Shown here: positions 4,616 through 41,649 of the stretch, piece by piece | How positions within the stretch are numbered: the stretch's first letter is position 1 | Layout: every line of letters starts with the position of its first letter | Source: a virus | Strand: one strand, 5' to 3' | Length of the DNA: 41,649 bases | Virus record (IMG/VR): IMGVR_UViG_3300037258_000024 | Span: 1 to 41,649 of that record | Translations under genes and position numbers: made by a program | Notes under the pieces: generated by a model | Told to the model about the DNA's origin: nothing | Seen by the model: only the letters and a program-made list of their open reading frames with translations | Databases searched by the model: none

Positions 4616-6796
4616 ATGGAAGCTCTAGCAAATAAGTACAGGCCACGGCGATTTGATGACATTCTAGGGCAGAAAGCAGTCTCTCAGCTTCTTAAGCAGA
4701 TGGTAATAAAAGGAACAGCGCCAACGGCCATGCTATTAACTGGCCCACGGGGCAGCGGAAAAGCTCAGCCTTTGGATTCTTTGGTACTAACACCTTTTGG
4801 GTTTAGACCCATGTCTTCTCTTAAAATAGGCGACTCCGTAGCTGATCCAGAGGGAGGTTATTCTGAGGTAGTTGGCATTTTCCCCCAGGGGTCACAGAGA
4901 GTGTATCGGTTAACTTTCTCTGATGGTTCTAGTTGTGAATCTACTCTTGATCATTTGTGGGAGCTCGAGATCTGGAAGGGAAAGAAGTGCAAAGGTAAAC
5001 GACATGCCAAATTAGAGAGAGAAGTTAAAACAACGGCTCAGTGGGCCGACTTTATTAAAAAGCCTTCATATAGAGCACACCGAGCTAGATTAGTATCAAC
5101 TGCTAGTCTTGATGAATTTGATATGACAGAAGAAAATTTACCTTTAGATCCATACTTGTTAGGCGCGTTACTAGGGGATGGCAGTATTAGTTCAGGCTCT
5201 CCTAGGCTAGAGACAGCTGACATAGAAATATTGGAGGCAGTGTCCAGAGTATTGCCTAGTGGCATAAAAGCTAAGTTTGTTACTACTGCCAGTAAATCAT
5301 CTACCTTCAATTTGACTGCGGGACAGATGGGAGGGGCAGCTAATCCTATAACAACTGCTTTACGAGATTTGCAGGTGTGGGGCACTAAGTCTGACACTAA
5401 ATTTGTGCCAAATGTTTATAAAGAGGCTTCTGCTAAAACACGTCTAGCTGTTCTTCAAGGTCTAATGGATACAGACGGAAATTGGGCAAGTTCAGGAGCC
5501 CAGTTTTCTTCAGCTTCTAAAAAACTGAGAGACGATGTAGTGTGGTTAGCCAGATCTTTAGGGTTGCGAGTAACTTCTCATTCTAAGAACACTAGTTATC
5601 GGTATAAAGGTGAGAGCCTCCAAGGAAAAATTGCATATACAGCCTCTATTCGTGACACGAAGAATTTGAGAGTGTTTAGGTTGTCTAGGAAGCTAAAAGA
5701 AGTTTCTTCTTCAACTTATTATAGGTATTTAGTGTCTGTAGAATACTCTAGAGACATTGATTGTCAGTGCATAAAAGTTTCAGCACCTTCACAGTTGTAT
5801 ATTACTAATGATTTTATTCCTACTCATAATACGACTACAGCTCGGGTAGTCGCAGCGGCTGTCAACTGTGAGATCAGTAGTGATCCTCCTTGTGGCTCTT
5901 GTTCTTCTTGTGAGTCTATATTCAGTGACAGCTCTTTGGACTATCGAGAAATTGACGCTTCTACCAATGGGCTAGTGGACAATATTAGAAAGTTGCAGGA
6001 AGACATCCTGTATCAGACTCCAGGCAAGATGCACATAATAACCCTTGACGAAGTGCAAGGTCTCAGTTCAGCTGCATCTAATGCTTTGTTGAAGACTCTG
6101 GAGAATGCCCCAGAGGGCGTAATGTTTATTCTGGTCAGCACAGAATCTGATAAGATCCTTTCCACTATTAAAAGCCGCTGCATGTCTTTCCAGTTCCGTA
6201 AGGTTTCCCCAGATGTGGTAGCAAAGAGATTGTATGAGATCAATAAACTTGAGCATTTAGGTGTTGACTCAGAGGCTCTTGTGGCCATAGCTGACCGTTC
6301 TGACGGCGCTCTTAGAGATGCTTTGGTTACTTTGGACCAGATCAGCCGTGCTGGAGTGACCACTTTCGAAGAATTCAAAGACCTATTCGGCAATCCTGAT
6401 TTTGCTCCTTCACTGATGCTAACAATGTTTCATGGTGACTATGCAAAAGCTTATGAGCTGCTAGACAGTCATCTTAAGTACACTGGGGACTCTTCTTCAG
6501 TTGTAGCGGGCCTGGTAAACACTCTCCGTGACATTTTAGTGCTTCAGGGCGGCGGATCTTTGGATGTTCGGGCTTCTGCTTTGAAACTAAGGACTGAGCT
6601 GGCGCAGAAGGTGGCCACGGAGCGAGTACTAGCGGCCATGAAGGCTCTTTGGGACCTAAAGGTGAAGCTCCGTATAGGTGAGGATTCCCAGAGCTCCCTT
6701 AACCTAGTAGTTAGTGTTATTACGCAGACGCTTTCAGAGCGTCCTAAAGTAGAGTACGTTCCATCAACTGTTGGGCTGGAAATGGCGGAAAAGTGA
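4616..6796 (+). CDS. dnaX: DNA polymerase III gamma/tau (clamp loader ATPase) with intein
   Basis: The exteins form a 370-aa DnaX-like AAA+ ATPase. It opens with the hallmark NKYRPRRFDDILGQ, then a Walker A (GPRGSGK|TTTAR) split by an intein, a zinc module (C in VNCE, then CGSCSSCES), Walker B/DExx in ITLDEVQ, sensor 1 VSTE and the arginine-finger region STIKSRC. A helical domain follows to the end; the tau-specific C-terminal domains are absent. It would load the phage clamp at 2818. A strong AGAGGAGA lies about 6 nt before the ATG. No delta or delta' gene is visible here, so host subunits may complete the loader. The 356-aa intein must be spliced out to restore the P-loop, so this gene is probably inactive until splicing. 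Confidence 0.9.
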   Translation: MEALANKYRPRRFDDILGQKAVSQLLKQMVIKGTAPTAMLLTGPRGSGKAQPLDSLVLTPFGFRPMSSLKIGDSVADPEGGYSEVVGIFPQGSQRVYRLTFSDGSSCESTLDHLWELEIWKGKKCKGKRHAKLEREVKTTAQWADFIKKPSYRAHRARLVSTASLDEFDMTEENLPLDPYLLGALLGDGSISSGSPRLETADIEILEAVSRVLPSGIKAKFVTTASKSSTFNLTAGQMGGAANPITTALRDLQVWGTKSDTKFVPNVYKEASAKTRLAVLQGLMDTDGNWASSGAQFSSASKKLRDDVVWLARSLGLRVTSHSKNTSYRYKGESLQGKIAYTASIRDTKNLRVFRLSRKLKEVSSSTYYRYLVSVEYSRDIDCQCIKVSAPSQLYITNDFIPTHNTTTARVVAAAVNCEISSDPPCGSCSSCESIFSDSSLDYREIDASTNGLVDNIRKLQEDILYQTPGKMHIITLDEVQGLSSAASNALLKTLENAPEGVMFILVSTESDKILSTIKSRCMSFQFRKVSPDVVAKRLYEINKLEHLGVDSEALVAIADRSDGALRDALVTLDQISRAGVTTFEEFKDLFGNPDFAPSLMLTMFHGDYAKAYELLDSHLKYTGDSSSVVAGLVNTLRDILVLQGGGSLDVRASALKLRTELAQKVATERVLAAMKALWDLKVKLRIGEDSQSSLNLVVSVITQTLSERPKVEYVPSTVGLEMAEK
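4763..5830 (+). mobile_element. DnaX intein, class 3-like, with LAGLIDADG endonuclease
   Basis: This 356-aa in-frame insertion starts at Ala (AQPLDSLVLTPFGF) between K49 and T of the DnaX P-loop and ends PTHN before TTTAR. Hint motifs are visible: block A PLDSLVLTP, block B STLDHLW, block F DCQCIKVSAP, block G FIPTHN. The first residue is not Cys or Ser, while a Trp after the block B His, a Cys in DCQC and a Thr in PTHN form the WCT set known from class 3 inteins, which use an internal Cys. Two dodecapeptide motifs, LLGALLGDGSI and LQGLMDTDGNW, mark a LAGLIDADG homing endonuclease, so it is probably mobile. The +1 extein residue is Thr. Confidence 0.88.
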
Positions 6797-14784: not shown

Positions 14785-15453
14785 ATGCCAGCTGAGCATG
14801 ATCAAAAAATCACTCACAGTTATGCAGTTCATTATCCAGAGCATGCACCAAGAGAAGAAGATAGTCAGTGTTCTATAGATGATTGCGCAGAGTCTTCCAA
14901 GTCTAGAGGAATGTGTAAAAAGCATTATGGTAGTTGGTACTACTATCAGAATAAACAGCGTTATTTCGATAGAGCTGAGCAGTGGAAGCAAGATAATCCT
15001 GAGAAAGTAGCTAAGTCTAAGAAGAAGTGGCTTGATAATAATAAAGATTATGCTAAAGACTATTATGAGGCAAACAGAGAGAAATTAGTAGATAGGGCTA
15101 ATTCTTGGAATAAAGACAATCCTGAAAAGGCTAGAAGTAACGCCCGTAAGTATAGAAACTCTCATCCTGAAGCAGGCCGTGCAAACGTTAGACGACGAAG
15201 AGCCATTAAGGCTAGTATACCTACATCTCGATATAGCGAGGCAGAAGTGTATGCTAGAGATGGCTGGGCTTGTCAACTATGTCATGCTCCTGTAGATTCT
15301 AAATTAAGGTGGCCTGATGTAAATTCTAAAAGCATTGATCACATCATACCAGTAACTGTCGAAGGTTCTACAGACACATTTGACAATGTCCAGCTAGCTC
15401 ATTTGGGTTGTAATTCTTCTAAAGGAAATAGATATCATGCCGGAAGCTCATGA
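14785..15453 (+). CDS. homing-type HNH endonuclease with captured N-terminus
   Basis: This 222-aa protein has four parts. Residues 1-26 (MPAEHDQKITHSYAVHYPEH...) match the first 26 residues of the next gene at 17 positions. Then comes a Cys/His cluster (CSIDDC...GMCKKHYGSW), a basic repeat region (QDNPEKVAKSKKKW, YEANREKLVDRANSW, KDNPEKARSNARKYR) likely to bind DNA, and a C-terminal HNH nuclease (CQLCHAPV, SIDHIIPV, NVQLAHLGCNSSKG). It resembles free-standing homing endonucleases. TTAGGGAGC is a ribosome site. It ends 17 nt inside the next gene. The shared N-terminus suggests it inserted at the start of the packaging-HNH gene and kept the start signal. Confidence 0.8.
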   Translation: MPAEHDQKITHSYAVHYPEHAPREEDSQCSIDDCAESSKSRGMCKKHYGSWYYYQNKQRYFDRAEQWKQDNPEKVAKSKKKWLDNNKDYAKDYYEANREKLVDRANSWNKDNPEKARSNARKYRNSHPEAGRANVRRRRAIKASIPTSRYSEAEVYARDGWACQLCHAPVDSKLRWPDVNSKSIDHIIPVTVEGSTDTFDNVQLAHLGCNSSKGNRYHAGSS

Positions 15454-15865
15454 ACAAAAGGTTACACACTCTTACACTGTTCATTACCCTCAGCACGATC
15501 TTAGAGAGCATGATAAAACCTATAAAGACTTCAATGCCTTCCACAGGAAGACTAAAAGTGATCCTGAGATCTATAAATGCGCCATAGGCAAGCATAGAGA
15601 TGACTACTCAGAATGTGATCTAGCTCACCCTCTAGAATTACATCACTCTCATGTAGAATTTAGTCTCCAAAACGGGGTGAATCTAAAATGGTTAGAGAAG
15701 GATTACCCAGGAATTTCAAATCCTGACGAAGTTGGAGCTTGGGTAGAGTCGGCTGCTAATCTTGAATGGCTGTGTCTTTTCCATCATAGAGGACAAGGCG
15801 GAGTACATGTAGCTGCGGCTAGTGATTTTGAGGCTGAGCGCTACATTAGAGGCCTAATCCGATGA
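15437..15865 (+). CDS. HNH endonuclease, packaging-associated type
   Basis: This 142-aa protein has a small HNH/ββα-metal nuclease core: DLAHPLELHHSHVEFSL, where adjacent His residues serve as catalytic and metal ligands, and NLEWLCLFHHRGQGGVHV at the end. Small HNH proteins next to the terminase assist DNA cleavage in packaging in several siphophages, and the terminase is two genes downstream. The N-terminus (MPEAHEQKVTHSYTVHY) is duplicated in the upstream homing HNH. AAAGGAAA at 15419-15426 is the ribosome site, inside the end of that gene. Confidence 0.7.
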   Translation: MPEAHEQKVTHSYTVHYPQHDLREHDKTYKDFNAFHRKTKSDPEIYKCAIGKHRDDYSECDLAHPLELHHSHVEFSLQNGVNLKWLEKDYPGISNPDEVGAWVESAANLEWLCLFHHRGQGGVHVAAASDFEAERYIRGLIR

Positions 15866-16698: not shown

Positions 16699-19600
16699 AT
16701 GGCAGCGAAAACATTCGCTGATGTATTCACACAAGAGCTTGCCAAGAAGCCAAAAGAAGCACTGGTTTCTATGGCAGGTTCTTCTGGTCTAGTCAGCCTA
16801 GAGTCCTTGTTTGATGAGATTCCTGTAGGCCTGGATGTTTTTGTGCGAGACAAGAAGTTCCTAGGTCAGAACATCACACTTTCTCCTGTTCAGGCTGAGG
16901 CTATTCAATACATGGAACGTGTATACTACAAAGATATGTATTCTAAATTGGGAGAGTATGAGCCTTACTGGAATGCTGATATCCCGATAAAGAATTTCTT
17001 GTATTTCCAGTGGGGAAAAGGATCGAAAAGTCCCGATTCTCTAATATACACTGTTGATCAGGGCAAATGGGTAACTTTACGGGACTTCAGGGCTTCTCTG
17101 GTAGCTTCGGCGCCTAAAGACACTGGGGTTGTGGCCTCTCACATGGCTACAGATTCTTTTCTAGAGGGTTATGGTTCCATGTACAAGGTTACTCTAGCTT
17201 CTGGGTTAGAGACCATTGTTTGGGAAGGCCATAAGTTTCTAAGTTGGAACAGAGACGTATCTGATGCTGGCCGAATCTTAGGCGTGAAAGCCAGTAAAGG
17301 GTTTGACTGGAAACGACTTTGGGACATGGAAGTAGGGGATCATGTAGCTGTTTCTAGTTACGTGCCAGAGCCTACAAACACTGTGCAAGTTGATTCACGA
17401 GAAGTAGAACTTGTAGGTCTCTGGATAGGCGATGGCTGTATGCCCTTAAATAGGGGTGACAGAGGACCTACTATGGCTATTGGCTACAAGTCTCCAGTGT
17501 TACTGCATAAATATAAGTCTTTAGGAGAATCCTATGGGCTAAAGCATACAGTACAAGATGATCCTAAGCAGCATAAAGTTACTGTTACCCTGACAAATGG
17601 ACGTAGTTCTAACACTAATCCTGTGCGTGAGGTGTGTTTCAAGTGGGGCTTAAATGGTAAAAGGGCAGCCACTAAACGTATCCCAGAAGAGTTCTTTAGT
17701 CTTCCTAATGATCAAATTGTCCTGTTACTCTCAAGGCTTATAGATACCGATGGGTGGTTAACCTCAGTATCTAATACTTGTGAAATTGGCTATGGTTCTA
17801 TATCTAAAGGACTAGTCGAAGATATTCAGAAACTTCTTCTTCGGTTAGGGGTTCTGGCAGAAGTCAAGCAGAAGAACACTACTTACAAAGATAAGCCATA
17901 TACATCTTATCAGCTAAGAGTGCGTAAGTCTGAGATGGTAGAGCGTCTAGCGTCCCAATTAACTCTTCTTGACAAGGAAGAGAAAAGATTAGAAGTTTTA
18001 GATCGAGTGAAGAATGTAACTAGACGAAATGCCATGCATGGAGATCTGGTTTGGGATCGGGTCAAGTCTATTGAATACCTTTATGAAGGTGAGTACTGGA
18101 CTACTACGGTAGAAGGGCCTGCTTGCTACATTTCTGACGGAGGGTTTCTTGATCACAACTCAGGCAAGGACTCCGTTTGTCGTTTAGGCTCTCTGCGCAT
18201 TGCTTACCTTCTTATGTGCCTTAAAAGCCCGCAGGCTTATTTCGGAATGCCTGAAGATGACAACATTCATATGCTTAATGTGGCTATGTCTGCCACTCAG
18301 GCTCAGAATGCTTTCTTCAGTCCATTGAAAAAGAATGTATCTAGAGGATGGTTCAAAGACAGAACTGAGCCCACTAAGTCTGAGATTCACTATGATAAGG
18401 GCATTATTGGTATTTCTGGGCACTCTGAGACTGAGTCTCAGGAAGGTAATAACCTGATTCTAGGTGTACTCGACGAGATTGACGGTTTCAAGACTAAGGC
18501 AGAGCTAGCAAGGTTTCAGGGTGCCTCTGTTCGAGACAGTTCCAAGAGCGCTGAAGCCATTATGGAAATGGTCGGGACTAGCGGGTCGACTCGGTTTCCA
18601 GAAACACACAAGATGGTGTGCATCAGTTTCCCTCGTTATCTTGGTTCTACTATTCAGAAATTGTGTGCTGAGGGCCGTAAGGACATAGAAGATGATCCCG
18701 AAGGTTCTCCTTACTACGTCTCTGGTCCTCTGGCCACTTGGGAAGTTAATCCCACAAAGAAGAAGTGGATGTTCCTTAAGGACTACAAGAAAGATCCGAT
18801 AGCGGCAGCTGCTAAGTATGAGTGTAACCCTACATATGCCTCAAATCCTTATTATAGTAATGCTTTGGCTGTAGAAAATTGTTTCTCCGACAGAGATCCA
18901 ATAAAGATTGATTACGTCTACAATGGCTCTGTGTGGGAACCTTCATATGAGTTCAGCGAGAATTTCTATCCAGTGCAAGGGGCCATATATGCCATGCATG
19001 CAGACATGGCGGTTACTGGAGACCGAGCTGGGATAGCCCTCGCCCATGTCGTGCGAAGAGATTCTGTAGAAAAAGAGATTTTCGGCGAGAATGGGGAACT
19101 GATACGGGTTACTGACATGTTACCTTATGTGAAGGTGGATTTTGTCATAGGGTTTGAGGCAGATTTAACTTCAGCTCCAGCCAGAGAGATTCAGATCCGC
19201 TGGGCTAGAGATTTATGGGCTGAGTTGAAGCTTCGAGGATTCAACATTCGGCAGTTCAGTTTCGATGGCTTCCAAAGTTTAGAGTCTCGACAAGAACTGG
19301 AGAGACTAGGAGTAAATTCTCCTAGGCTGTCAACAGATCTCACTGAAGAGCACTGGAAAGGTCTTAGAGACTTAATGTATGGCAGCAGGGTATCCCTTCC
19401 TTATAGTGATATTCTTGCCTCAGAGTTACTAAGCCTTACGAGAAGGTCTACTGGGAAAGTAGACCATGTGGCTTCAGGTTCTAAAGACTTCGCTGATGCT
19501 CTGGCTTGTGCTTGCACTGGGGCGATAATGATGGGCGGTCAGGAGTCTGTTACTGGGGACAGGGCATACTACGCAGCTCCAGAGTTTGTTATTGGAGACA

Positions 19601-19728
19601 ATGTAGCGCCTGAGTTGCGAATGCTTGAACATGATCCTATGAACATAGTTTTTGATGAGATGGACTTCGATACGCCCTTGAGCACAGAGGGCTGGGGAGA
19701 CTTGTCCAGCTCTGGCGGTCTGTGGTAG
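16699..19728 (+). CDS. terL: terminase large subunit with P-loop intein
   Basis: The 1009-aa product minus a 379-aa intein leaves a 630-aa terminase. The ATPase domain has Walker A WGKG|SGKD, restored only after splicing, and Walker B in LILGVLDEIDGF. The C-terminal RNase H-like nuclease shows acidic residues in HADMAVTGDRAG, QFSFDGFQS and SKDFADALACA. It drives ATP-dependent packaging of DNA into the prohead and cuts the concatemer. The ATG follows a GAAGAAAGT stretch and a 78-nt gap. The portal gene starts 40 nt later. No small terminase is recognisable nearby. Confidence 0.93.
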   Translation: MAAKTFADVFTQELAKKPKEALVSMAGSSGLVSLESLFDEIPVGLDVFVRDKKFLGQNITLSPVQAEAIQYMERVYYKDMYSKLGEYEPYWNADIPIKNFLYFQWGKGSKSPDSLIYTVDQGKWVTLRDFRASLVASAPKDTGVVASHMATDSFLEGYGSMYKVTLASGLETIVWEGHKFLSWNRDVSDAGRILGVKASKGFDWKRLWDMEVGDHVAVSSYVPEPTNTVQVDSREVELVGLWIGDGCMPLNRGDRGPTMAIGYKSPVLLHKYKSLGESYGLKHTVQDDPKQHKVTVTLTNGRSSNTNPVREVCFKWGLNGKRAATKRIPEEFFSLPNDQIVLLLSRLIDTDGWLTSVSNTCEIGYGSISKGLVEDIQKLLLRLGVLAEVKQKNTTYKDKPYTSYQLRVRKSEMVERLASQLTLLDKEEKRLEVLDRVKNVTRRNAMHGDLVWDRVKSIEYLYEGEYWTTTVEGPACYISDGGFLDHNSGKDSVCRLGSLRIAYLLMCLKSPQAYFGMPEDDNIHMLNVAMSATQAQNAFFSPLKKNVSRGWFKDRTEPTKSEIHYDKGIIGISGHSETESQEGNNLILGVLDEIDGFKTKAELARFQGASVRDSSKSAEAIMEMVGTSGSTRFPETHKMVCISFPRYLGSTIQKLCAEGRKDIEDDPEGSPYYVSGPLATWEVNPTKKKWMFLKDYKKDPIAAAAKYECNPTYASNPYYSNALAVENCFSDRDPIKIDYVYNGSVWEPSYEFSENFYPVQGAIYAMHADMAVTGDRAGIALAHVVRRDSVEKEIFGENGELIRVTDMLPYVKVDFVIGFEADLTSAPAREIQIRWARDLWAELKLRGFNIRQFSFDGFQSLESRQELERLGVNSPRLSTDLTEEHWKGLRDLMYGSRVSLPYSDILASELLSLTRRSTGKVDHVASGSKDFADALACACTGAIMMGGQESVTGDRAYYAAPEFVIGDNVAPELRMLEHDPMNIVFDEMDFDTPLSTEGWGDLSSSGGLW
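17023..18159 (+). mobile_element. terminase intein in the Walker A motif, Ser1 type
   Basis: This 379-aa in-frame insertion begins SKSPDSLIYTV (Ser1, with D5-S6-L7-I8 matching block A) and ends FLDHN before a +1 Ser (SGKDS). Excising it restores GKGSGKD, a good terminase P-loop. LAGLIDADG motifs are visible: VGLWIGDGCM and LSRLIDTDGWL. Block B has WEGHKFL, so the usual TxxH Thr is replaced. Block F is WTTTVEGPACYISDGGFLDHN. Ser1 and Ser+1 fit a class 1-like mechanism, but the atypical block B makes the splicing chemistry uncertain. Confidence 0.88.
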
Positions 19729-22805: not shown

Positions 22806-23264
22806 ATGACATCTTACACTCCGGGCGATTCTTACCCAAAGATTGAGCTGCCAAGCTACGCGGAGCCCACCCACACTTATGGGTCGACTTTCGGCGACAA
22901 CTTCCACGCCCCCGCAGTTCTGGAGCTACTGGCTTCAACTGACGGCGGCTTTACCCAGCGTGGGGTAATCCTGGCCGGTGGCCAGGGTGTTCTTCCAACC
23001 GGGACCGTTCTGGCTCAGTACACTTCTGGTCCTAACCAGTATGCTTATGGTGTGTATTCTGACAGTGGTTCTAATGGGCTTAACACTCCTCTAGGTTTCC
23101 TACGCAATGGCGTCGATACCGGCACTGTTACAGGGGTTAACACTGGGGGCTTACTAGTAGACCGTGGGATCGTCAATGTAGCAGTGACTTCTGGTCTTAC
23201 TTCCACAGCGATTGTAAAGCTGGTAGGTCGTCAGGATGCCGCTGTTAACCGCTTCTACTTCTAA
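22806..23264 (+). CDS. head decoration protein, lambda gpD-like
   Basis: This 152-aa protein follows the scaffold and precedes the capsid gene, the usual place for a decoration protein. The body is rich in Gly/Thr/Val turns: GVILAGGQGVLPTGTVLAQYT, then GTVTGVNTGGLLVDRGIVNVAV, which resembles the beta tulip fold of gpD-type trimers. The N-terminus (about 1-40) is Pro/Tyr-rich and extended. GGGAGA lies 8 nt before the ATG. It should stabilise the expanded capsid. A strong bidirectional terminator follows the stop. Confidence 0.75.
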   Translation: MTSYTPGDSYPKIELPSYAEPTHTYGSTFGDNFHAPAVLELLASTDGGFTQRGVILAGGQGVLPTGTVLAQYTSGPNQYAYGVYSDSGSNGLNTPLGFLRNGVDTGTVTGVNTGGLLVDRGIVNVAVTSGLTSTAIVKLVGRQDAAVNRFYF

Positions 23265-30555: not shown

Positions 30556-31128
30556 ATGAAACTGTGCAGAGGTTGTGACATTGAGAAAGCTTGCAGTGAG
30601 TTCAATAAGTACAAGAGCGCTCCAGATGGTCTACAGCCTCGTTGTCGTGCTTGCCAAAAAGTCTATAATGAGGCCCGACGTCACGATCCAGCTATAATAG
30701 AGCGTAGAAAACAATACGATAGAGATCGTTACTATGCAAATGTAGAAGTATCTCGTAAGAGAGTACGAGATTACAACAGAGAGCATGCTGAGGAACGGCA
30801 AGCTTACACTCGAGCATGGCGGCTGGCTAATCTTGAAAAGATTAAAGAAACTGACACTTTAGATAAGCAACGCCTTCGCTGGCAGAAGAGACGTGCTATT
30901 AAACGAGATGCTTTTGTAGAAACGGTACGTTCAGAAGAGATATATAAAAGAGATAATTATATCTGTCAGTTATGTTTCGCCCCCGTAGATATAAACTTGA
31001 AGTGGCCAGATCCTATGTCTCACAGTTTAGATCATATTGTACCTTTGTCTAAAGGCGGGGAACACTCACGAGCTAATACACAGCTTGCACACATAGGTTG
31101 CAACTGGAAGAAGAACAACAAAGTATAG
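30556..31128 (+). CDS. free-standing homing-type HNH endonuclease
   Basis: This 190-aa protein resembles the HNH at 14785 in its C-terminus. Near the start is a zinc cluster (CRGCDIEKACSEF, LQPRCRACQKVYNEARR). A long basic helical middle (RRKQYDRDRYYANVEVSRKRVRDYN, HAEERQAYTRAWRLANLEK) probably binds DNA. The HNH domain follows (YICQLCFAPVDINLKWP, SLDHIVPLSKGGEH, TQLAHIGCNWKKNN). It lies between accessory genes and the major tail protein, consistent with an inserted homing gene. A promoter just upstream may drive it, with GAGG close to the ATG as the only ribosome site. Confidence 0.83.
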   Translation: MKLCRGCDIEKACSEFNKYKSAPDGLQPRCRACQKVYNEARRHDPAIIERRKQYDRDRYYANVEVSRKRVRDYNREHAEERQAYTRAWRLANLEKIKETDTLDKQRLRWQKRRAIKRDAFVETVRSEEIYKRDNYICQLCFAPVDINLKWPDPMSHSLDHIVPLSKGGEHSRANTQLAHIGCNWKKNNKV

Positions 31129-31893: not shown

Positions 31894-32514
31894 ATGACTA
31901 ATGAATTGGACGCTCTATCCCCAGTGTCTCCGGTAGTTACTCTATCAACAGGCACTGAGGTAGAGCTTCTTGATTTGAAGGCGCGACAGTTCTTCAAACT
32001 GCTCAAGATTGTGACCCACGGCCCAGCCAGCGCTTTGATCGGAGCCGGTTCTGAACTGTTGTCGGGCTCTCAGGAACAGATCATAGGCAAACTCATGGGT
32101 TATCTAGTGGTCAGTATTCCTGACACCTATGAAGAGGTTGTGGACTTTGTGGGCTCCATGATCAAGCCTGCTGGCTTGCGTGAGGCTAACAAGGTCAACG
32201 ATAAGGTGGCTAAGGCTCATAATGATGCTCTATGGCAGACCCTGTCTCAGGACATGGGCAACCCTGAAGTAGAAGACCTTATTGATCTCATTGAGGCCAT
32301 TGTCAAGAACGAAGCAGCTGATCTGGCTGCATTGGGAAAAAAAGTAATGTCCCTGGTAAAAGTGGCTCAGAAGACAGGCCAGCTCAAGCCGTCTACTCCC
32401 CAGACATCCCCGGATCAGAATACTTCGGAGGCTTCTCCGAACTCTTCGACCTCATCAGTTCCGAATACGGATGGACAGATGCATACATTGGAGACCTCTC
32501 TATCCGTCGCCTGA
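31894..32514 (+). CDS. tail assembly chaperone, short form (gpG-like)
   Basis: This 206-aa zero-frame product has EVELLDLKARQFFKLLKIVTHGPASALIG near the start and a helical body. It is the first half of a two-part tail chaperone that binds the tape measure protein during tail assembly, as lambda gpG does. Near residue 149, codons TTG GGA AAA AAA give a slippery site where a fraction of ribosomes shift to make the longer form. Position between tube and tape measure genes is classic. Confidence 0.85.
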   Translation: MTNELDALSPVSPVVTLSTGTEVELLDLKARQFFKLLKIVTHGPASALIGAGSELLSGSQEQIIGKLMGYLVVSIPDTYEEVVDFVGSMIKPAGLREANKVNDKVAKAHNDALWQTLSQDMGNPEVEDLIDLIEAIVKNEAADLAALGKKVMSLVKVAQKTGQLKPSTPQTSPDQNTSEASPNSSTSSVPNTDGQMHTLETSLSVA

Positions 32515-32906
32515 GGCAGGCTTACGCCGCTATTGCTAGGCGACGTTACATAGAAGACAGAAACCGTAGAGAAGCCGTGAGCTGGCAAACTCAGCAGATT
32601 ATTAAAACGCTGGTTGCTACGTGCATGGCTGACGAGAAACCTAAAGAGAAGATGATGGAACAAGTGTCAGATCTGCGTTTGGAAACACAGGAAGAGAAGG
32701 ATTTCCGTGAGAAGCACGGTAATCCTGAAGACAAGGTAGCCTCTGGGTCGTATGAGAGACTGATGAGCTTTATCGGTGCTCCTGCTGACGTCACGGCCAC
32801 TGCTGCTGACGGTCCTGCTCCTCTGCCTCCGGGCCCAGCAGACCCGGGAGCTTCTAATATTGACTACACCTACCATGATGACTATGAGCCTCAGCCTCTT
32901 GACTAG
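31894..32906 (+). CDS. tail assembly chaperone, frameshifted long form (gpGT-like)
   Basis: After -1 shifting at 32334-32344, the product continues in the other frame with SDIPGSEYFGGFSELFDLISSEYGWTDAYIGD-type sequence and the GDLSIRRLRQAYAAIARRRY helix, a pattern common in siphophage GT C-terminal parts (DYGWT..IxxL..), to a Pro/Asp-rich end at 32906. Total about 337 aa. The T part recruits the tube protein in lambda. A GTG at 32577 could start an isolated T part but lies far downstream of the conserved sequence, which argues for the fusion. Confidence 0.85.
32334..32344 (+). promoter_or_regulatory. -1 ribosomal frameshift site of the tail chaperone gene
   Basis: GGGAAAAAAAG includes the heptamer G GGA AAA (32334-32340) and A AAA AAA in the zero frame. 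Slipping back by one at either gives the same product, GKKSNVPGKS, and the -1 frame is open from here to 32906. The layout is the same as lambda G/GT. Confidence 0.88.
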
Positions 32907-32934: not shown

Positions 32935-32971
32935 AAGAAGCCGATGGAGAAATTCTCTCTGTCGGCTTCTT
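32935..32971 (+). terminator. hairpin after the tail chaperone genes
   Basis: AAGAAGCCGA (32935-32944) pairs with TCGGCTTCTT (32962-32971) over 10 bp, extended inward by six more pairs (two G-T). The T tract after it is short, so it may be a weak terminator that leaves some read-through into the tape measure gene or an RNA-protecting hairpin. Confidence 0.6.
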
Positions 32972-33004
32972 TCAAATAGCGCAGGACGCAGAGAGGCAAG
33001 TGTT

Positions 33005-33103
33005 ATGATTACAAGCACGATGACCTCTCGCAGTGTGTCTCCCATAGAAATATCTAACAAGGTGTGTGTGGAGTGGCTGCACCTTATTAGTATTGCGGGG
33101 TGA
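33005..33103 (+). CDS. small ORF, 32 aa, uncertain
   Basis: This 32-aa ORF (MITSTMTSRSVSPIEISNK...) has AGAGG about 9 nt before its ATG. It fills most of the gap between the chaperone terminator and the tape measure start. It has no recognisable motif and is as likely to be chance as real. Confidence 0.25.
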   Translation: MITSTMTSRSVSPIEISNKVCVEWLHLISIAG

Positions 33104-33110
33104 TGCTACG

Positions 33111-33176
33111 ATGAGTACCGATCTACCAGGCGACCATGCCTATGACGTTATTTATCGATTACCCTTAGTAGGGTAA
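33111..33176 (+). CDS. tape measure N-terminal ORF, 21 aa
   Basis: This ORF encodes MSTDLPGDHAYDVIYRLPLVG and stops at TAA 33174. GGGGTGAT lies about 9 nt before the ATG. DHAYDVIYR reads like the first strand of a tape measure protein, and the frame that continues the protein begins only 12 nt after the stop. If ribosomes move from CGA 33156 to CGC 33188, the result, DVIYR-ATADFTNLAEQ, is a smooth join. If they do not, this is a short leader peptide. Confidence 0.5.
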   Translation: MSTDLPGDHAYDVIYRLPLVG

Positions 33177-33178
33177 TC
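33157..33178 (+). promoter_or_regulatory. hairpin at the break in the tape measure gene
   Basis: GATTACCC (33157-33164) and GGGTAATC (33171-33178) form a perfect 8-bp stem with a 6-nt loop. It starts within the presumed take-off codon CGA (33156-33158) and contains most of the TAA stop. Stop codons occur in all three frames nearby (TAA 33174, TAG 33169, TAG 33185). Confidence 0.75.
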
Positions 33179-33244
33179 ATCACTTAGCGCGCAACCGCAG
33201 ACTTCACAAATTTAGCTGAGCAGGTAGCAGCCGCCAGGGCAGAA

Positions 33245-36200
33245 ATGGACGCCCTGAAACAGAGTTCTGATGACTTCAACAAGTCTCAGGTCTCTCAGCA
33301 GGGTGCCCTGACTAAGGCTGAGAACGATCGTACAACGGCCATGAAGGCCTCGTCTGATGCTACGTCCAAGCTTATTCAGCAGCAGACACTTCTTAACAAG
33401 GCTGAGAATGACGGATTCGATAGTCCTCAGCAGGCTTTGGCGTATAAGCAGCAGGAAACTTCCGCACTTACAAACTACAACAAGGCTCTAAACAATGGGC
33501 GCACTACTGTTGACCAGGTCCTTCAGGACAAGCGCAATCTTACTCAGACTCAGACTGATCAGAACGCGGCAATTAAGGGCTTCACTGACGGCATAACACA
33601 AGCAGCACAAGCTACTTCTGATTTCAATGCCTCTTCTGCTGCTCTTGCAGGCACGCAGAATGACGTAAAGTCTTCCACTGACGGCCTTGCGGCGTCTTAT
33701 GATGATGCTAAGAACTCTTTAGACACCACTAAGAAGTCAGCAGAAGATCTAAGAAGTGGGGTAGAGGATCTAAACTCTGGCTTTGAAGATGCTGTTAAAT
33801 CTTCCTCTGACTTGAAGAGAGGAGTAGATGGCACTGGCACGAGCATTGATGATTTGGCTTCAAAGATCAAAGCGGCTACAAGCTACAGTGACTCTTTCTC
33901 AAATTCTTTAGCTAGAAGCCTTATCAATCAGCTGAACGATCTTAAAACTGCCATGGGCAGCGGGAGTCTAGAAGCTGACGAGCTGGCTCAGAAGGTTAGA
34001 AGTACAACTGGGTCTTTGTCGTTGCTAGAGAAAGCAGCTGGGGATAACTCAGATCTGTCCAGTTTCTTTGAGAAAGCTCATACTGATCTTGACAGCTATA
34101 AGGCTTCATTAGGAGACGCTGAAGCCGGTACCGTATCTCTTGGTGATGATGCTCTTGATCTGTCTAAGCACTTGGATGATACTTCTAATAGTAGTAAGGG
34201 TGCTTCTTCTACTGTAGACCGTATGGCCTTGAGTTTCGTAGCGTCTACGGCATCTGGTGTGAATCTGTCCAATCAGCTGGCTAAGGTAAACACGGACTTA
34301 GAGGCTTTGGACAGGACGTCCAGTACAGGCTTCTCTGACCAGATGATTACGCAGCTCGGCAAGATCAGTGACGCTTATACAAAGGTGTCCAACCAGCTGA
34401 AGTCCAATCCTGCGGCTGCCCCAATGCTGGTCGATACAGGCCAGTCTCTTGACGCTCTAGCTCTTAAATTCCAGGATCTTTCCAGAAATCTGGATAATGC
34501 AGACACTGAACTAGATAAGACAGGCAAGTCTGCTTCTGGGATGAATGCAGCAAGCGTTGTGCTGTCAAGCAATCTCTCCAAAGCTACTTCAACTCTAGAA
34601 GACTTAAGAGGTCAGCTCTCAAATGGGGGTCTTGACTTCGACTCTTTCGTGTCTTCTATTGCCAAGGGCAATACCAGCCTAGTAGCTCTTAAGAAGTCAG
34701 CCGTAGCTGTTGGAGACTCAGACTCCATAACGGCTGTGCAGAATCTGCAAGAAGGTTATGACAAGCTAGCATCTTCTGCGCTGGCTTCCAAGAATGACAC
34801 TGCCGTATTCAAATCTGCTATTGATGGCACTTCTTTATCTCTGGACGATAACAAGAAGAGCGCTGATGGCGCCGCGTCTAGCCTGAGTGGCCTTTTGAGT
34901 GTAGGCAACAGTCTAGATAACACCTTCAAGAAAGTTGCTACTGATCTTAGTTCTTTCTCTGCCATTTTAGACCATGTCGGAGGCTCAGGAGGCTCAGGCG
35001 GAATCTTGGGTTCCGTCTTAGGAGGGCTAGGAGGCGCAGCCAGTTCTGGCGTCGGCGCGCTGAGTTCTTTGGCTTCTATGCTAGGTACAATAACGTCTTT
35101 GGCTGTTCCTGTAGTGTCCTTTGGGCTGGCCATTCCCACAATCGTTTCTAGTGTTGTTGCTTTAGGCGGGGCTCTTGTAGGATTACTTGGGGCTTTGGCT
35201 CCAGTTGTTGGCGTATTTGCCACCGCTCTTCCGCTTATTGCTGGGCTCGTCAGCGCTTTCGGAGCTGTCTCCTTAGCCATTGGGCCCTTGTCGGAGACTC
35301 TTAAAGATCTGCATACTAACACGGCTCAGTCTATGGCGGCCTTTGCCACATTTGATAAGCCTATTCAAGAGGCAGCAAACTCTATTTTCGGGTTGCAGAA
35401 GGCTTTCGGTGGCTTGGCCAAGATGGCTCCGGCTCTGGCTGATGATCTCCTTACACCTATGGAGTACGGCCTTAAAGGACTGGCATCTATAGCTCAACCT
35501 ATTATACAGACATTTGGCAATATGGCCACTGCTATAGGTAAGTCTATAGAGCCTATTCTAACAGCTATAGAATATGTATTCCAGAGCGGTCTGTTCACAA
35601 CGATGGCTGCCGCCGCTATGAAGGCTTTTGAAAACATTGGTGCCAGCATCGGGATGCTGATAGTTGTTCTTGCCAAGTTGGGGGCTGCTGCTGCTCCTTA
35701 TCTAGTCGAGCTTACAGCAGGTTTTCATGCATTCACTGAGAACTTAGACAATATGCTATCCATTGGCATAAAAGACGGAGGATTAGACAAGTTCTTCAAC
35801 CAGATGGTAACTGGCCTTTCTGAATTGGGGAAGGTCATCACAGGGCTGATTCAGGTGTTGGGCCAGTGGGGAGGGGCCCTAGCTCCTATTGGCAATAACA
35901 TACTGGTGGGCCTGGCTAATGGCTTAGACAAGCTAGCGGCTGCGGCCAACAAGGTGAACTTCAGTCAGTGGACCTCAGCCATTGAAAACTTCCTTCAGGG
36001 GATTGGTGGCCTGCTCAGTGCTGTTGTTAATGTCCTTGGTGCGTTTGCCGACTCTAGGTTTGTTAACTTTGCAGCGGACTTGCTTAAAGACCTTTCCCCA
36101 CTGATAAATGACTTGCAGCCTATTGCAGAATTCCTGAAGGATATTGCAGCTGGCTCTCTGCCTGTTATTGAAACCATCTTCCACAGCATTTCTGGCTGGG

Positions 36201-39200
36201 TTGGAGACATTCTAAAGGGTGTAGGGGACTTCTTAGGAGTTATTGAGAAAATCCAGCCTATCATGGATGTTCTTTCTGCCATCTTTGCGGGTCTTGCCAC
36301 GCTGGTAATCAGTGCTAGCGTTATCTCGTTCTTCCAAATGCTGTCAGGCGTGTTGGGCAAAGGTCTTTCAGGTATTATTGACCTGCTCAATAAGATACCG
36401 GGCATAAATATTCCAGGCGGCGGCTCATCAGGAACTGGGACTGCCGCCGCAGATACAGGAGCTGCTGGGCTAAATGATGCTGCGACTAGCCTAAATGAAG
36501 CAGCAGCTGCTTTGCAAAGTGCCGCGGATGCTCAAAGTGCCGCCGCTGGGGATACCACAGCCTCTGCGACAAGTCTGGACACTTCTTCGACAAGCTTAGA
36601 TGCTTCCTCTACCGGCTTGGACACTTCTGCAACAAGCTTAGATGCTTCAGCTGCGGAGCTGAAGATCTCAAGAGGCATATCAAATGAACCAGGTGGCGGC
36701 CCAATAGTCCCGACTACTTCTCCCGCGGCAGAAGAAGATGTAGCAGGCGGTGGCGGTTTAGCAGCAATTCTAAAAAGTGGTTTTGGCAAAGTCTTAAGTG
36801 GCGTGACACTAGGTTCCGCAGTTGTTCTAGGAGGCAATGTTGTTGCCGACCAGACTACTAAGGCTAATTCCAAGCTCAATAGTGCCATCAAGGAAGGCTC
36901 AGACATCGCTGGTGGTGCTGTAACCGGAGGCAAGATTGCAGGACTCCCAGGGGCTGTAATCGGCGCTGGCGTAGGTGAAGTGGTTGGGGCTGAGACTAAC
37001 CCCAACATCAGGCCTACGGTCAACAAGGACATGAGCGAAGGCAACAAGATTGGTGGCCCTATTCTAGGCGCTCCAGTCGGTTTTGGTGTCGGGTTGGCCC
37101 AGAGTCTGCTTCCAGACAGTGTTAAGAAGGCCATTCAAGACTTCTTCACCAAGACTCTTCCTGGTTACGCTTCAACAGCTTATCAGGCCGTCTCTAAGGC
37201 TTTCCTGAGTCCATTCACCAACTTCTGGACTCAGACCCTCCCCAGGAATATCACAAACTGGGCAAAGTCTGTAGGAAGTGCTTTTGCAACAGCTTACAGC
37301 ATGGTCAATAAAGATTTCTTCAGTCCAATAGGCTCGTTCTTCTCTAAGACCTTCCCTGGGTTCTTCAAGACGGCAGCTTCAAATGTAGCCAGTTGGGCTA
37401 CTACTAGCTGGAATGATTTCACCAAGTTCTTCGCACTCCCTGTGTCTAGTTTCTTCACCAAGACTCTCCCAGGCTTCTTCAAGTCAGCAGCCAGCTACGT
37501 GGCTAGCTGGGCCTCTACAAGTTGGAATGATTTCACCAAGTTCTTCGCACTCCCTGTGTCTAGTTTCTTCACCAAAACCTTAGGTGGCTTCTTCGTTCAG
37601 GCTTTGTCTTATGTAGCCAACTGGGCCAACAGTGGTTGGAATGATGTCAACAAGTACTTCATCAGTCCTATGGGTTCTTTCTTCTCCAAAACCTTGGGCG
37701 GTTTCTTCGTCCAGGCTTTGTCTGACGTAGCAAACTGGGCAACTGATGGTTGGAATGATGTCAACAAGTACTTTGTGAGTCCGCTTGGGTCCTTCTTCTC
37801 CAAAACTCTTCCTGATTTCTTCGTTCAGGCAGCATCAGATGTGTCTAACTGGGCAACCAGTGGTTGGAATGACTTCAACAAGTTCTTCATCAGTCCTATA
37901 GCTGATTTCTTCTCGAAGACTATACCTGATTTCTTTAATCAGGCACTAACTGATGCCTCCAATTGGGCAACCAATGGCTGGAACGACTTCAACAAGTTCT
38001 TTGTTTCACCTCTGTCTGATTTCTTCTCTAAGACCATCCCGAACTTCTTCAGTGCAGCAACCACAGATGTGCTTAACTGGGTTACGGCTGGCTGGAACGA
38101 CTTCAACAAGGCCTTCGTAAGTCCTATATCAAACTTCTTCAGCTCAACTCTTACAGGTTTCTTGAACACGGCCACTAATGAAGTGCTTAACTGGGTTACG
38201 ACCGGTTGGAACGACTTCAACAAGGACTTCGTATCCCCAATCTCGAACTTCTTCAGCTCAACTCTCACAGGTTTCCTTAATACAGCTGCTAATGAAGTAT
38301 CTAGCTGGGCCAGTACGGGTTGGAACGACTTCAATAAGTTCTTCGTAAGCCCTGTATCTAGTTTCTTCACAAGCACTATTCCAGGGCTGGCCACTGGCGC
38401 AGGCAATGCTATTCAGAACGCTTTCAAGAATGCTATGAACTGGGTAATCTCTAATGTCATTGGTGAGGGCAGTTCCCCATCCAGTGGTGTTATTGGACTG
38501 CTGAACAAAGTTCTAGGAGTTGTAAGCATTCACATTGCCGGTCTTCCTGGCTTATCCACTGGCGGTCTCGTTCCAGGGAGCCTCGCTGAGAGTGATACTT
38601 CAGACTCTCAACTTGCCCGTCTTACCCCAGGCGAGTTTGTTGTGCGAAAGAAGGCAGCAAAGGCTCTAGGCTTAGATTTCCTTAATAACATCAACAACGC
38701 TGACAAGTATGCAGACGGCGGCGCTGTTCGTGGGTATGCAGGCGGCGGAGGCATCATTGGAGGCATTGGCAGTGCCATATCAAAGGCCGCAGGAACTGTA
38801 GCTAATGCAGCAAGCAGTACGGTGCAGGCAGCAGCAGGCGGGGTCACTGGGATTGTCAATGGTATTGAAGGGTTGGCTTCCGGAGCTATCAGTGGCTTAG
38901 TCGGTCTAGTTGCTGGCTCTCTACAGCCCGCATTTGATGCCATCTGGAGTGCGACAATTCAGCCCATGATTGCTAAGCTCGGGGGCAGTGACGAGTCTTT
39001 GGGAACTGGTGGAGCTGCTTATGCTATAGGTTCTATGAAGAGTGGGATCGACAGCATCTTAGGAGCTAAGGACAAGGCTGCTCAGCAGGCCGCGGCTTCT
39101 GTAAACCTGCCAGGTGATGCAGCAGCGTGGATCACACAGGGTATGGCAGCTGCGGGAGTGTCTGGGCCAGCATGGCAGCAAGGTCTTTCTATCATTGCCA

Positions 39201-41649
39201 AATACGAGTCCGGAGGAAATCAAGGGGCTGTAAATAATACCGACAGCAATGCCCAAGCTGGGCACCCTTGTGTTACGCTAGACACTATGATTCTCACTAA
39301 GCGCGGATGGCTCGCTTATGACCAGGTACAGGTCAATGATGAAACCATAGGCTACAACCCTGTGACAGGTACTTCTGAGTGGACAAGGGTAACCAAGGTT
39401 CACCTTTATGACGACGCTCCAATCTGGGAGATCAGCAACTCTCGCTGGTCAGCTCGTGTGACTCCCAACCACCGTTGGTGGTCAGACACAGCCATAGAGC
39501 AGCCCAAGACAGCCTATGAATTGTGCCCTGAGTGTGGTTGGGTCCCTGGAACAGGCCGCAATCCAAAGCTTGCGCCTCTGAAGGACAAGGCAAGAAGCGT
39601 GGCCACTCACCGTGCCAAGGAGCATGGTGTGAAGAAGATTGCCCGAAAGATGGCAGAAGAGTATAGAGGAGAGTTTGTAGAAACACAAGACCTCAAGTAC
39701 AACCACCGCATCCGTGTAGCCGCTCTTGCTGAGACCGGCCCCGGCCTTCCCATCTCAGATGACGAGGCAGCCATTCTCGGCTGGCTGATCGGTGACGGCC
39801 ACTTTAACAGTGAGTCAGAAGGTACATGGCGAGGCACTATTTATCAGTCCAAGCAGCACGTAGTTTCCATCCGTGCCCTGTTGTCTCGTAATACACAGTT
39901 CTCTGAAGGTGTCAGACAGCGTGAGAACTCCATGATGCCTCAAGGCAAGATGTCTGTCTCTAAGCTGCCTTCGCATGCATTTGGGCTAACTACAGCCTTT
40001 GTGACAGACCTGTTCAAGCGTGCTCAGTTTGATGGAACTGATTGTGAAAGCCTTGTGCTAGCTCTTAATTCTTCTCAGCGCAAGGCATGGATCACCGCAA
40101 TGATTGATGCTGAAGGCCACACTGAGGATGGCTATACACGCATTGCTCAGGCTGAAGGATCAGTTCATGATGCTATTATTCTTGCGGTCTATTTAGAAGG
40201 CTATAACCCACGAATTGTCCACAATAGAACTTTGCCGGGTTACAAGAAAGTAAATAACATTGGTATGGCACGTCCTCATATTAGTCCGGTAAACCTCACG
40301 ACTGAAGTACAGGGGAATGAGCCGGTGTGGTGTGTGAGCACTGAACTGGGCACGTGGACAATGGAGCAAGATGGTAACCCTATGCTTACGGGCAACAGCG
40401 CAGGGTTATTACAATTCATTCAACCAACTTTTGATGCTTATGCAAAACCCGGATTTACAACATGGATGAATCCAGTCGACCAAGTAGTTGCTGACTGTGT
40501 TACGCTAGACACTATGATTCTTACAAAGCGCGGCTATCTTAAGCATGATGAAGTTGTTATTGGGGATGAAACTCTGGGATACAACATTGCCACAGGTCTT
40601 AACGAGTGGACTCCTATTAAGCGAGTAGTCCACTATTCCGATGCCCCTACAGTACGTATTGGCTCAAAGCACGTGTCTTACCAGGTAACTCCAAACCACA
40701 AGTGGGTGGCAGAGAAGTATCGCCATGTTCCTAAGGCTCCTCAGCCAGATAGCTGCCCAGATTGTGACTTTATCCCTTCGGGCAGTGTTAAAGGCCAGGG
40801 ACTGGCTGTTCATCGTAAGAAGGCTCACGGCTGGGCAGCCGCTAAGCAAGAATGGGCCTATCAGGCTCCTAAGCTTGTAGAGTCTGAAGATATAACTTCT
40901 CGTCACCGCTTGCGAGTGAGTGCTCCTGCGACTACTGGTACAGGGTTGCCTATTTCACTGATTGAAGCAGAGCTGCTGGGCTGGGTTCTAGGTGATGGTA
41001 GCTATATCTATCCTCATCGTTACGCACGCAGTGGAGATGTTCCCAGGTTTAATATCTATCAGACAAAGGAAGGCTACATTCCTTCAATCCAGGCTCTGGT
41101 AGATGAGGTTGATTCTTCTGCTCATGTTTACAAAACAGTTGTTGAAAGTGGGCGTCTGGCACACACCTGGAAACTCACAGGGGCTTATAGCAGAGATCTC
41201 GCAGAGCGTTCTGGGTATGCTGAGGATAAGTTGGAGGCTATGGTATTCGCCATGTCTCATGAGCAGCGCGAGGCTTTCTTACGCGGGATAATAGGAGCTG
41301 AAGGGACAGCTGCTGATAGGATTGATGGCAGTAGGGGAGGAAACCTTACACGGATTCCTCAGGTTTACGGGCCTAAGTTCGAGGCCATTCTACTTACCAC
41401 TTATCTGTTGGGTTACAGGCCTTCAGTTAGCGATAAGAAGCAGTCTAACTCTAACTGGTCAGCTGCGGGTATTGTCAGTACCTGCAAGCCGGTCATCTCA
41501 GCTACTGTGTATGAAGACGCTGGGAACGCAGATGTCTGGTGTGTTACCACTGGTCTTGGCACATGGACAGCTCGTGACGGTCATAACGTGTTCTTGACTG
41601 GTAACTCGTGGAGCGGCGGGTATATCCCTAAGAGATATGGATCGATTGG
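33245..41649 (+). CDS. tape measure protein with lytic transglycosylase domain, two inteins, 3'-partial
   Basis: This very long frame runs without a stop to the window edge, over 2800 codons including two inteins. Order: coiled coil with Asp/Ser/Lys/Ala-rich repeats (33.2-34.9 kb), hydrophobic segments (35.0-35.3 kb), helical and Gly-rich parts, a TSLD(T/A)S repeat stretch near 36.5 kb, eleven 38-aa repeats (37178-38431), the tape measure hallmark LTPGEFVVRKKAAKALG (about 38.6 kb), and a lytic transglycosylase domain (IIAKYESGGNQGAVNN..., catalytic Glu in YESGG). ATG 33245 has AGGG 5 nt upstream, but good tape-measure sequence (ATADFTNLAEQVAAARAE) precedes it in frame from 33188 with no start codon, so the true N-terminus probably lies at 33111 and needs recoding. 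It sets tail length and opens the cell wall. Confidence 0.88.
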   Translation, partial: MDALKQSSDDFNKSQVSQQGALTKAENDRTTAMKASSDATSKLIQQQTLLNKAENDGFDSPQQALAYKQQETSALTNYNKALNNGRTTVDQVLQDKRNLTQTQTDQNAAIKGFTDGITQAAQATSDFNASSAALAGTQNDVKSSTDGLAASYDDAKNSLDTTKKSAEDLRSGVEDLNSGFEDAVKSSSDLKRGVDGTGTSIDDLASKIKAATSYSDSFSNSLARSLINQLNDLKTAMGSGSLEADELAQKVRSTTGSLSLLEKAAGDNSDLSSFFEKAHTDLDSYKASLGDAEAGTVSLGDDALDLSKHLDDTSNSSKGASSTVDRMALSFVASTASGVNLSNQLAKVNTDLEALDRTSSTGFSDQMITQLGKISDAYTKVSNQLKSNPAAAPMLVDTGQSLDALALKFQDLSRNLDNADTELDKTGKSASGMNAASVVLSSNLSKATSTLEDLRGQLSNGGLDFDSFVSSIAKGNTSLVALKKSAVAVGDSDSITAVQNLQEGYDKLASSALASKNDTAVFKSAIDGTSLSLDDNKKSADGAASSLSGLLSVGNSLDNTFKKVATDLSSFSAILDHVGGSGGSGGILGSVLGGLGGAASSGVGALSSLASMLGTITSLAVPVVSFGLAIPTIVSSVVALGGALVGLLGALAPVVGVFATALPLIAGLVSAFGAVSLAIGPLSETLKDLHTNTAQSMAAFATFDKPIQEAANSIFGLQKAFGGLAKMAPALADDLLTPMEYGLKGLASIAQPIIQTFGNMATAIGKSIEPILTAIEYVFQSGLFTTMAAAAMKAFENIGASIGMLIVVLAKLGAAAAPYLVELTAGFHAFTENLDNMLSIGIKDGGLDKFFNQMVTGLSELGKVITGLIQVLGQWGGALAPIGNNILVGLANGLDKLAAAANKVNFSQWTSAIENFLQGIGGLLSAVVNVLGAFADSRFVNFAADLLKDLSPLINDLQPIAEFLKDIAAGSLPVIETIFHSISGWVGDILKGVGDFLGVIEKIQPIMDVLSAIFAGLATLVISASVISFFQMLSGVLGKGLSGIIDLLNKIPGINIPGGGSSGTGTAAADTGAAGLNDAATSLNEAAAALQSAADAQSAAAGDTTASATSLDTSSTSLDASSTGLDTSATSLDASAAELKISRGISNEPGGGPIVPTTSPAAEEDVAGGGGLAAILKSGFGKVLSGVTLGSAVVLGGNVVADQTTKANSKLNSAIKEGSDIAGGAVTGGKIAGLPGAVIGAGVGEVVGAETNPNIRPTVNKDMSEGNKIGGPILGAPVGFGVGLAQSLLPDSVKKAIQDFFTKTLPGYASTAYQAVSKAFLSPFTNFWTQTLPRNITNWAKSVGSAFATAYSMVNKDFFSPIGSFFSKTFPGFFKTAASNVASWATTSWNDFTKFFALPVSSFFTKTLPGFFKSAASYVASWASTSWNDFTKFFALPVSSFFTKTLGGFFVQALSYVANWANSGWNDVNKYFISPMGSFFSKTLGGFFVQALSDVANWATDGWNDVNKYFVSPLGSFFSKTLPDFFVQAASDVSNWATSGWNDFNKFFISPIADFFSKTIPDFFNQALTDASNWATNGWNDFNKFFVSPLSDFFSKTIPNFFSAATTDVLNWVTAGWNDFNKAFVSPISNFFSSTLTGFLNTATNEVLNWVTTGWNDFNKDFVSPISNFFSSTLTGFLNTAANEVSSWASTGWNDFNKFFVSPVSSFFTSTIPGLATGAGNAIQNAFKNAMNWVISNVIGEGSSPSSGVIGLLNKVLGVVSIHIAGLPGLSTGGLVPGSLAESDTSDSQLARLTPGEFVVRKKAAKALGLDFLNNINNADKYADGGAVRGYAGGGGIIGGIGSAISKAAGTVANAASSTVQAAAGGVTGIVNGIEGLASGAISGLVGLVAGSLQPAFDAIWSATIQPMIAKLGGSDESLGTGGAAYAIGSMKSGIDSILGAKDKAAQQAAASVNLPGDAAAWITQGMAAAGVSGPAWQQGLSIIAKYESGGNQGAVNNTDSNAQAGHPCVTLDTMILTKRGWLAYDQVQVNDETIGYNPVTGTSEWTRVTKVHLYDDAPIWEISNSRWSARVTPNHRWWSDTAIEQPKTAYELCPECGWVPGTGRNPKLAPLKDKARSVATHRAKEHGVKKIARKMAEEYRGEFVETQDLKYNHRIRVAALAETGPGLPISDDEAAILGWLIGDGHFNSESEGTWRGTIYQSKQHVVSIRALLSRNTQFSEGVRQRENSMMPQGKMSVSKLPSHAFGLTTAFVTDLFKRAQFDGTDCESLVLALNSSQRKAWITAMIDAEGHTEDGYTRIAQAEGSVHDAIILAVYLEGYNPRIVHNRTLPGYKKVNNIGMARPHISPVNLTTEVQGNEPVWCVSTELGTWTMEQDGNPMLTGNSAGLLQFIQPTFDAYAKPGFTTWMNPVDQVVADCVTLDTMILTKRGYLKHDEVVIGDETLGYNIATGLNEWTPIKRVVHYSDAPTVRIGSKHVSYQVTPNHKWVAEKYRHVPKAPQPDSCPDCDFIPSGSVKGQGLAVHRKKAHGWAAAKQEWAYQAPKLVESEDITSRHRLRVSAPATTGTGLPISLIEAELLGWVLGDGSYIYPHRYARSGDVPRFNIYQTKEGYIPSIQALVDEVDSSAHVYKTVVESGRLAHTWKLTGAYSRDLAERSGYAEDKLEAMVFAMSHEQREAFLRGIIGAEGTAADRIDGSRGGNLTRIPQVYGPKFEAILLTTYLLGYRPSVSDKKQSNSNWSAAGIVSTCKPVISATVYEDAGNADVWCVTTGLGTWTARDGHNVFLTGNSWSGGYIPKRYGSI
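37178..38431 (+). repeat. eleven tandem 114-bp (38-aa) repeats in the tape measure gene
   Basis: Units start at 37178, 37292, 37406, 37520, 37634, 37748, 37862, 37976, 38090, 38204 and 38318, exactly 114 nt apart. The consensus is (G/S)WNDFNKFF(V/I)SP-(x)3-FFSKT(L/I)PxFF-(x)7-(N/S)WAT, rich in Phe and Trp. The first two units are worn (AYQAVSKAFLSP, AYSMVNKDFFSP) but keep the phase. Even spacing of aromatic residues is a general feature of tape measures, where it is thought to match tail rings. Confidence 0.92.
39269..40396 (+). mobile_element. tape measure intein 1
   Basis: This 376-aa in-frame insertion starts at Cys (CVTLDTMILTKRGWL) after AGHP and ends LTGN before SAGLLQF. Block B is RVTPNHRWW (TxxH), and block F is VWCVSTELGTWT. 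The end is Gly-Asn where His-Asn is usual. A C2H2-like finger (CPECGW ... THRAKEH) lies between the splicing block and LAGLIDADG motifs ILGWLIGDGHF and WITAMIDAEG. Removing it joins ...NAQAGHP-SAGLLQFIQPTFDAY..., a good transglycosylase sequence. Confidence 0.9.
40496..41605 (+). mobile_element. tape measure intein 2
   Basis: This 370-aa in-frame insertion starts with Cys (CVTLDTMILTKRGYL) after VDQVVAD and ends FLTGN before SWSGGYIPKRYGS. Block B is QVTPNHKWV and block F is VWCVTTGLGTWT. The finger is CPDCDF ... AVHRKKAH. LAGLIDADG motifs are LLGWVLGDGSY and LRGIIGAEG, the latter with Gly for the usual first Asp. It is a relative of intein 1. Removing it joins VDQVVAD-SWSGGYIPKRYGSI, close to the DxxxxIxxAxxYIxxRYG end of lytic transglycosylases. 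Confidence 0.9.

Follow-up and report, generated by a model that had tools for sequence, protein, structure and literature searches.

The firmly established examples of long-gap ribosome bypassing are a single phage gene, T4 gene 60, and the mitochondria of some yeasts. In the T4 gene, the insert is believed to guard against a homing endonuclease. Counterparts of long-gap bypassing have long been expected and few have been found (review, PMC5009743). The same review describes the 5' stem loop of T4 gene 60 and the need in T4 for a nascent-peptide signal about 30 residues back; it also covers the byps of Magnusiomyces capitatus mitochondria, short inserted nucleotide blocks neutralised by translational bypassing, a 29-nt translational hop reported in an adhesin gene of Prevotella loescheii, whose mechanism was never followed up, and phiHau3, whose gap is much shorter than that of T4 (PMC5009743).

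The locus compared with these systems here lies at the start of the tape measure protein (TMP) gene of an IMG/VR contig of 41,649 bases, which was analysed at its full length (the window) and holds the head and tail genes of a phage. The tape measure gene sets tail length. An earlier note had suggested that ribosomes bypass a 29-nt gap in this gene, joining a short upstream ORF to the main frame. A search of GenBank phage DNA gave no matches, and the search for relatives therefore moved along conserved neighbour genes. The tail chaperone query led to a contig (L002) whose TMP begins MPDAEKLIVYRAVADFADL; tail and capsid protein queries identified Microbacterium phage Magritte and Arthrobacter phages, whose TMP starts include MVDQRTRVIYQALADFSAL and MNVGKAIFKAIADFSQV. 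An alignment of the capsid protein yielded 80 contigs, the nearest of which (IMG/VR 3300033545_000001, here L008) has a capsid 71% identical to that of the window. No relative was found among the bacterial genomes searched. When near-identical contigs were sought with TMP, MCP and chaperone queries, L008 alone was close among the matches listed, from which very near records may have been omitted. The two frames of the tail chaperone, 31894-32514 and 32322-32906, overlap in the manner usual for a G/GT frameshift, a layout shared by L002 and L008. The features around the TMP start are as follows.

32935-32971, plus strand: terminator-like inverted repeat in the interval between the tail chaperone genes and TMP (16-nt arms, 88% complementary, 5-nt loop)
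33003-33110, plus strand: extra upstream segment of ~105 nt, borders approximate, from pairwise alignment; L008 is without it
33097-33104, plus strand: Shine-Dalgarno site GGGGTGAT for ATG 33111 (-12.4 kcal/mol)
33111-33158, plus strand: first TMP coding piece, MSTDLPGDHAYDVIYR, a homologue of L008 VPSVPGDHTYDVVYR and of 11 further TMP N-termini
33156-33158, plus strand: putative take-off codon CGA (Arg), in the sole codon pair restoring the homologous protein
33157-33178, plus strand: perfect 9-bp stem with UAGU tetraloop (or 8 bp with a 6-nt loop), -13.4 kcal/mol, beginning in the take-off codon
33158-33189, plus strand: 32-nt insertion by alignment to L008, placed equally well at 33156-33187 or 33157-33188
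33188-33190, plus strand: putative landing codon CGC (Arg), after which decoding would resume at GCA 33191
33191-41647, plus strand: TMP gene body (phrog_6090, phrog_305, phrog_167 tail length tape measure protein), running off the window
33245-33247, plus strand: ATG 33245, first in-frame ATG of the TMP frame and a rival start (Shine-Dalgarno -3.1 kcal/mol)

The reading frames are arranged as the earlier note had described them, and all of its coordinates were correct, including those of CGC 33188 and the first in-frame ATG at 33245. Between TAG 33185 and that ATG the TMP frame has no ATG, GTG, TTG or CTG, and it then stays open for ~2,800 codons (an 8.4-kb ORF). The upstream mini-ORF runs from ATG 33111 to the TAA at 33174-33176, both on the sequence and in the ORF lists. 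Stops close all three frames: TAA 33174 in the frame of ATG 33111, TAG 33185-33187 in the TMP frame and TAG TAG at 33166-33171 in frame 1.

Comparison with the relatives shows that one conserved N-terminus has been divided into MSTDLPGDHAYDVIYR and ATADFTNL..., since L008 and the other distinct relatives run unbroken across the junction. The TMP of L008 starts VPSVPGDHTYDVVYRATADFTDL where the window has MSTDLPGDHAYDVIYR followed, after the interruption, by ATADFTNL. Relatives lacking a DHAYDVIYR-like sequence had been named as evidence against a joined protein; L008 has DHTYDVVYR-ATADF. The gap is absent in L008 and 11 others, and in these 12 distinct relatives, which include Magritte and two Arthrobacter phages, the pieces abut exactly and the motif [Y/F]-[R/K/Q]-A-x-ADF stands intact among the first ~20 residues. 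At the DNA level L008 is likewise unbroken (TTTATCG|CGCAAC), while the window has exactly 32 extra nucleotides, 33158-33189 (L008 TTTATCGCGCAACTGC vs TTTATCG-ATTACCCTTAGTAGGGTAATCATCACTTAGCG-CGCAACCGC in the window). The borders can be placed three ways because CG flanks both ends. A gap is thus borne out, although its size has to be corrected from 29 to 32 nt, as the take-off and landing codons together encode one Arg. The TMP interruption has exact limits and occurs, within the set of sequences found, in this contig alone.

Initiation at ATG 33111 is well supported by its Shine-Dalgarno pairing, the strongest of the starts tested (-12.4 kcal/mol vs -1.8 to -9.1 for 32 window gene starts); none of 97 internal ATGs has pairing as strong, and the first piece therefore appears set up for translation. 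ATG 33245, at -3.1, compares with -3.0 for the homologous internal Met of L008 and a median of -2.9 for internal ATGs; judged from these values, nothing marks it as a start or sets it apart from other internal Met codons. This comparison of starts would look the same for a very recent insert. The site for ATG 33111 is supplied by the extra segment at 33003-33110, which also holds a 32-codon mini-ORF (33005-33103). Upstream of this mini-ORF is an apparently ancestral Shine-Dalgarno site, and the mini-ORF was considered as an HNH remnant and set aside, having no Pfam match. The equivalent of the inverted repeat at 32935-32971 is present at the same place in L008.

The leading explanation, which we hold with less than even confidence, is ribosome bypassing of the 32-nt insert. 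Translation of TMP would start at ATG 33111 and be interrupted after codon 16 by the non-coding insert. The ribosome would read to CGA 33156, where the peptidyl-tRNA-Arg would release; the hairpin that begins in this codon would help the ribosome to pass, and the tRNA would re-pair at CGC 33188, with decoding resuming at GCA 33191 to give ...DVIYR-ATADF.... Bypassing would in this way neutralise the insert, as it does in T4 gene 60. The two codons specify the same amino acid, are normally read by the same inosine tRNA and differ in the third base. CGA forms a weak pair with an inosine anticodon and CGC a better one, an arrangement that would favour release and then re-pairing in that order. 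The earlier note had called this the cleanest join, and of all matched frame-restoring codon pairs it alone gives the relatives' protein; the CG match of the two codons may stem from the insertion itself (chance ~1 in 16). The perfect 8-bp hairpin noted earlier was found again and refined to a 9-bp stem, starting at the second base of CGA. It is more stable than expected (z = -4.8; equally stable shuffles 0 of 200), ~1% of sampled window 35-mers fold as stably, and seven other perfect stems of at least 9 bp occur in the window. The case beyond chance rests on homology rather than on the hairpin, because the pieces abut exactly in the 12 relatives. Of the proposal that bypassing joins the mini-ORF to TMP, the halves of one gene, the CGA to CGC join and the hairpin register all stood; actual bypassing by ribosomes was not supported. 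The split of the TMP start is shown by comparison, and the hop itself we infer. A second TTACCC-N6-GGGTAA palindrome, at 22949-22970 (22951), shares 14 of 16 arm positions with the insert. It was rejected as a second insert and judged a coincidence: it lies in frame in the capsid decoration-protein gene, whose L008 homologue is without it at the DNA level.

Somewhat less probable, and still a serious contender, is that the insert arose as an artefact of assembly or of the library, or that the assembler picked a minority variant that is real but dead; the gene of the living phage would then be unbroken like those of its relatives. The insert is known from one IMG/VR record, all relatives found are unbroken, and no further copy of the insert or its hairpin turned up in the window, the fetched loci, or the IMG/VR and GTDB genomes searched. 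Against an error stands the form of the insert itself, since a 32-nt stretch whose perfect 9-bp stem begins flush with a matched codon would be an odd product of assembly; nor is it a local copy, as none of its 10-mers recurs in the rest of the window. Nor does the contig look sloppy or like a decayed prophage, given the long open TMP frame and the lack of any frame break in the ~28 genes shared with L008, if inteins and a single inserted HNH gene are set aside. An unlikely third account keeps the insert real and leaves it unbypassed: restart or fresh initiation at ATG 33245 would yield a TMP minus its first ~35 residues, the upstream piece would be a dead mini-ORF, and virion TMP would carry no peptide from ATADFTNLAEQVAAAR. 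This ATG is in frame with AGGG upstream, and loss of a short N-terminus might be tolerated; yet the lost stretch is conserved among relatives, the ATG lies 68 nt past the stop with pairing no better than that of internal Met codons, and the strongest Shine-Dalgarno examined would serve a useless 21-codon ORF.

More familiar recoding is very improbable. The frame offset between the pieces equals one -1 shift, so one could imagine ribosomes that slip by -1 ahead of TAA 33174 and then read through TAG 33185, or that make two +1 shifts; however, there is no slippery heptamer in 33146-33173, a -1 shift still meets TAG 33185, and a +1 shift meets TAG TAG or the wrong frame. TAG is not reassigned, as it ends 7 of the 37 listed genes, and stop reassignment was rejected on the same count. 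A self-splicing intron was also dismissed, with no Rfam match in the window and 32 nt far too small. Bypassing of the insert ranks first, followed by the artefact or dead variant and then by restart at ATG 33245.

What stands is an interrupted gene in a single uncultured contig; comparison fixes the limits of the interruption precisely, and both the codon match and the hairpin register are good. A wider reading, which we offer tentatively, is that this could be a second phage gene, here one for a virion structural protein, that is translated by long-distance bypassing; it would have a take-off hairpin like that of T4 and lack the A-site stop, landing Shine-Dalgarno and long nascent-peptide signal. 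The insert might also be a scar that protects against the free-standing HNH endonuclease encoded 2 kb upstream. If true, a second phage case lacking these three T4 signals would mean that a hairpin and a weakly paired take-off codon can suffice, and it would provide a compact system for dissecting the bypassing mechanism. Even if the insert is an artefact, further cases could be sought in the same way, by looking for conserved N-termini that a short frame-closing insert divides.

HNH endonuclease genes and intein-like insertions were also observed in the window. The HNH endonuclease gene just mentioned (30556-31128) lies between two tail genes and is absent there in L008. Another HNH endonuclease (14785-15453) has first 24 residues resembling the start of the next conserved gene (15437-15865), as if it had been inserted at the start of that gene with a duplicated N-terminus. 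Two intein-like insertions, both starting CVTLDTMILTKRG, occur in the later part of the TMP gene (33188-41647), and another is found in a clamp-loader-like gene (4616-6796). The gene at 16699-19728, beside the portal gene, is a probable terminase that also holds an intein-like insertion and has intein-splicing and LAGLIDADG domains. The portal gene of L008 has a large in-frame insertion that the window portal is without.

Among the described systems, phiHau3 resembles this locus as an actinophage morphogenesis gene with a short gap associated with the codon UUA. The phiHau3 proposal draws on the unusual way in which Streptomyces decodes UUA, whereas UUA is common in this phage (162 uses); no stall is therefore evident after take-off, and UUA as a stalling rare codon was rejected. 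The Prevotella loescheii adhesin hop falls in the same gap length class and is likened by gap length alone, being in a bacterial gene. The Magnusiomyces capitatus byps differ in number, with 81 inserts in one genome against one here that has no copies in the window, at other loci or in the collections searched, and in their setting of relaxed mitochondrial decoding in yeast; a single insert with no other frame-broken shared gene does not fit the dispersed byp type.

The closest likeness is to T4 gene 60. In both, a phage gene is split by a short out-of-frame insert with stops in the gap and absent from relatives (here L008 and 11 other distinct ones), and a codon for the same amino acid (Arg here) stands at both gap ends. 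The resemblance of the hairpins proposed in the earlier note proved close. With the T4 gene 60 record as yardstick, the T4 take-off hairpin (GGAUAGCC-UUCG-GGCUAUCU) has 8 bp, a 4-nt loop and -14.1 kcal/mol against 9 bp, a 4-nt loop and -13.4 here, and it begins at the first base of its take-off codon, so that register, loop size and stability are nearly equal. The sequence just upstream of take-off (33110-33156) can fold at -13.0 kcal/mol (z -2.4, a value for a single sequence), recalling the T4 5' stem loop. In contrast, the gap is 32 nt rather than 50 nt, the codons are CGA/CGC rather than identical GGA/GGA, and UUA 33159, not a stop, lies directly 3' of take-off. ATCACTTAG precedes CGC 33188, with no Shine-Dalgarno-like motif ~6 nt before the landing codon, and there are 16 codons before take-off vs 46 in T4, which leaves no room for the known T4 nascent-peptide signal. 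No mobA-like endonuclease is adjacent, and bypassing is demonstrated in T4 and a candidate here. Because the A-site stop, landing Shine-Dalgarno and long nascent peptide are missing, the candidate is not filed as a gene 60-type member, although it may work like gene 60.
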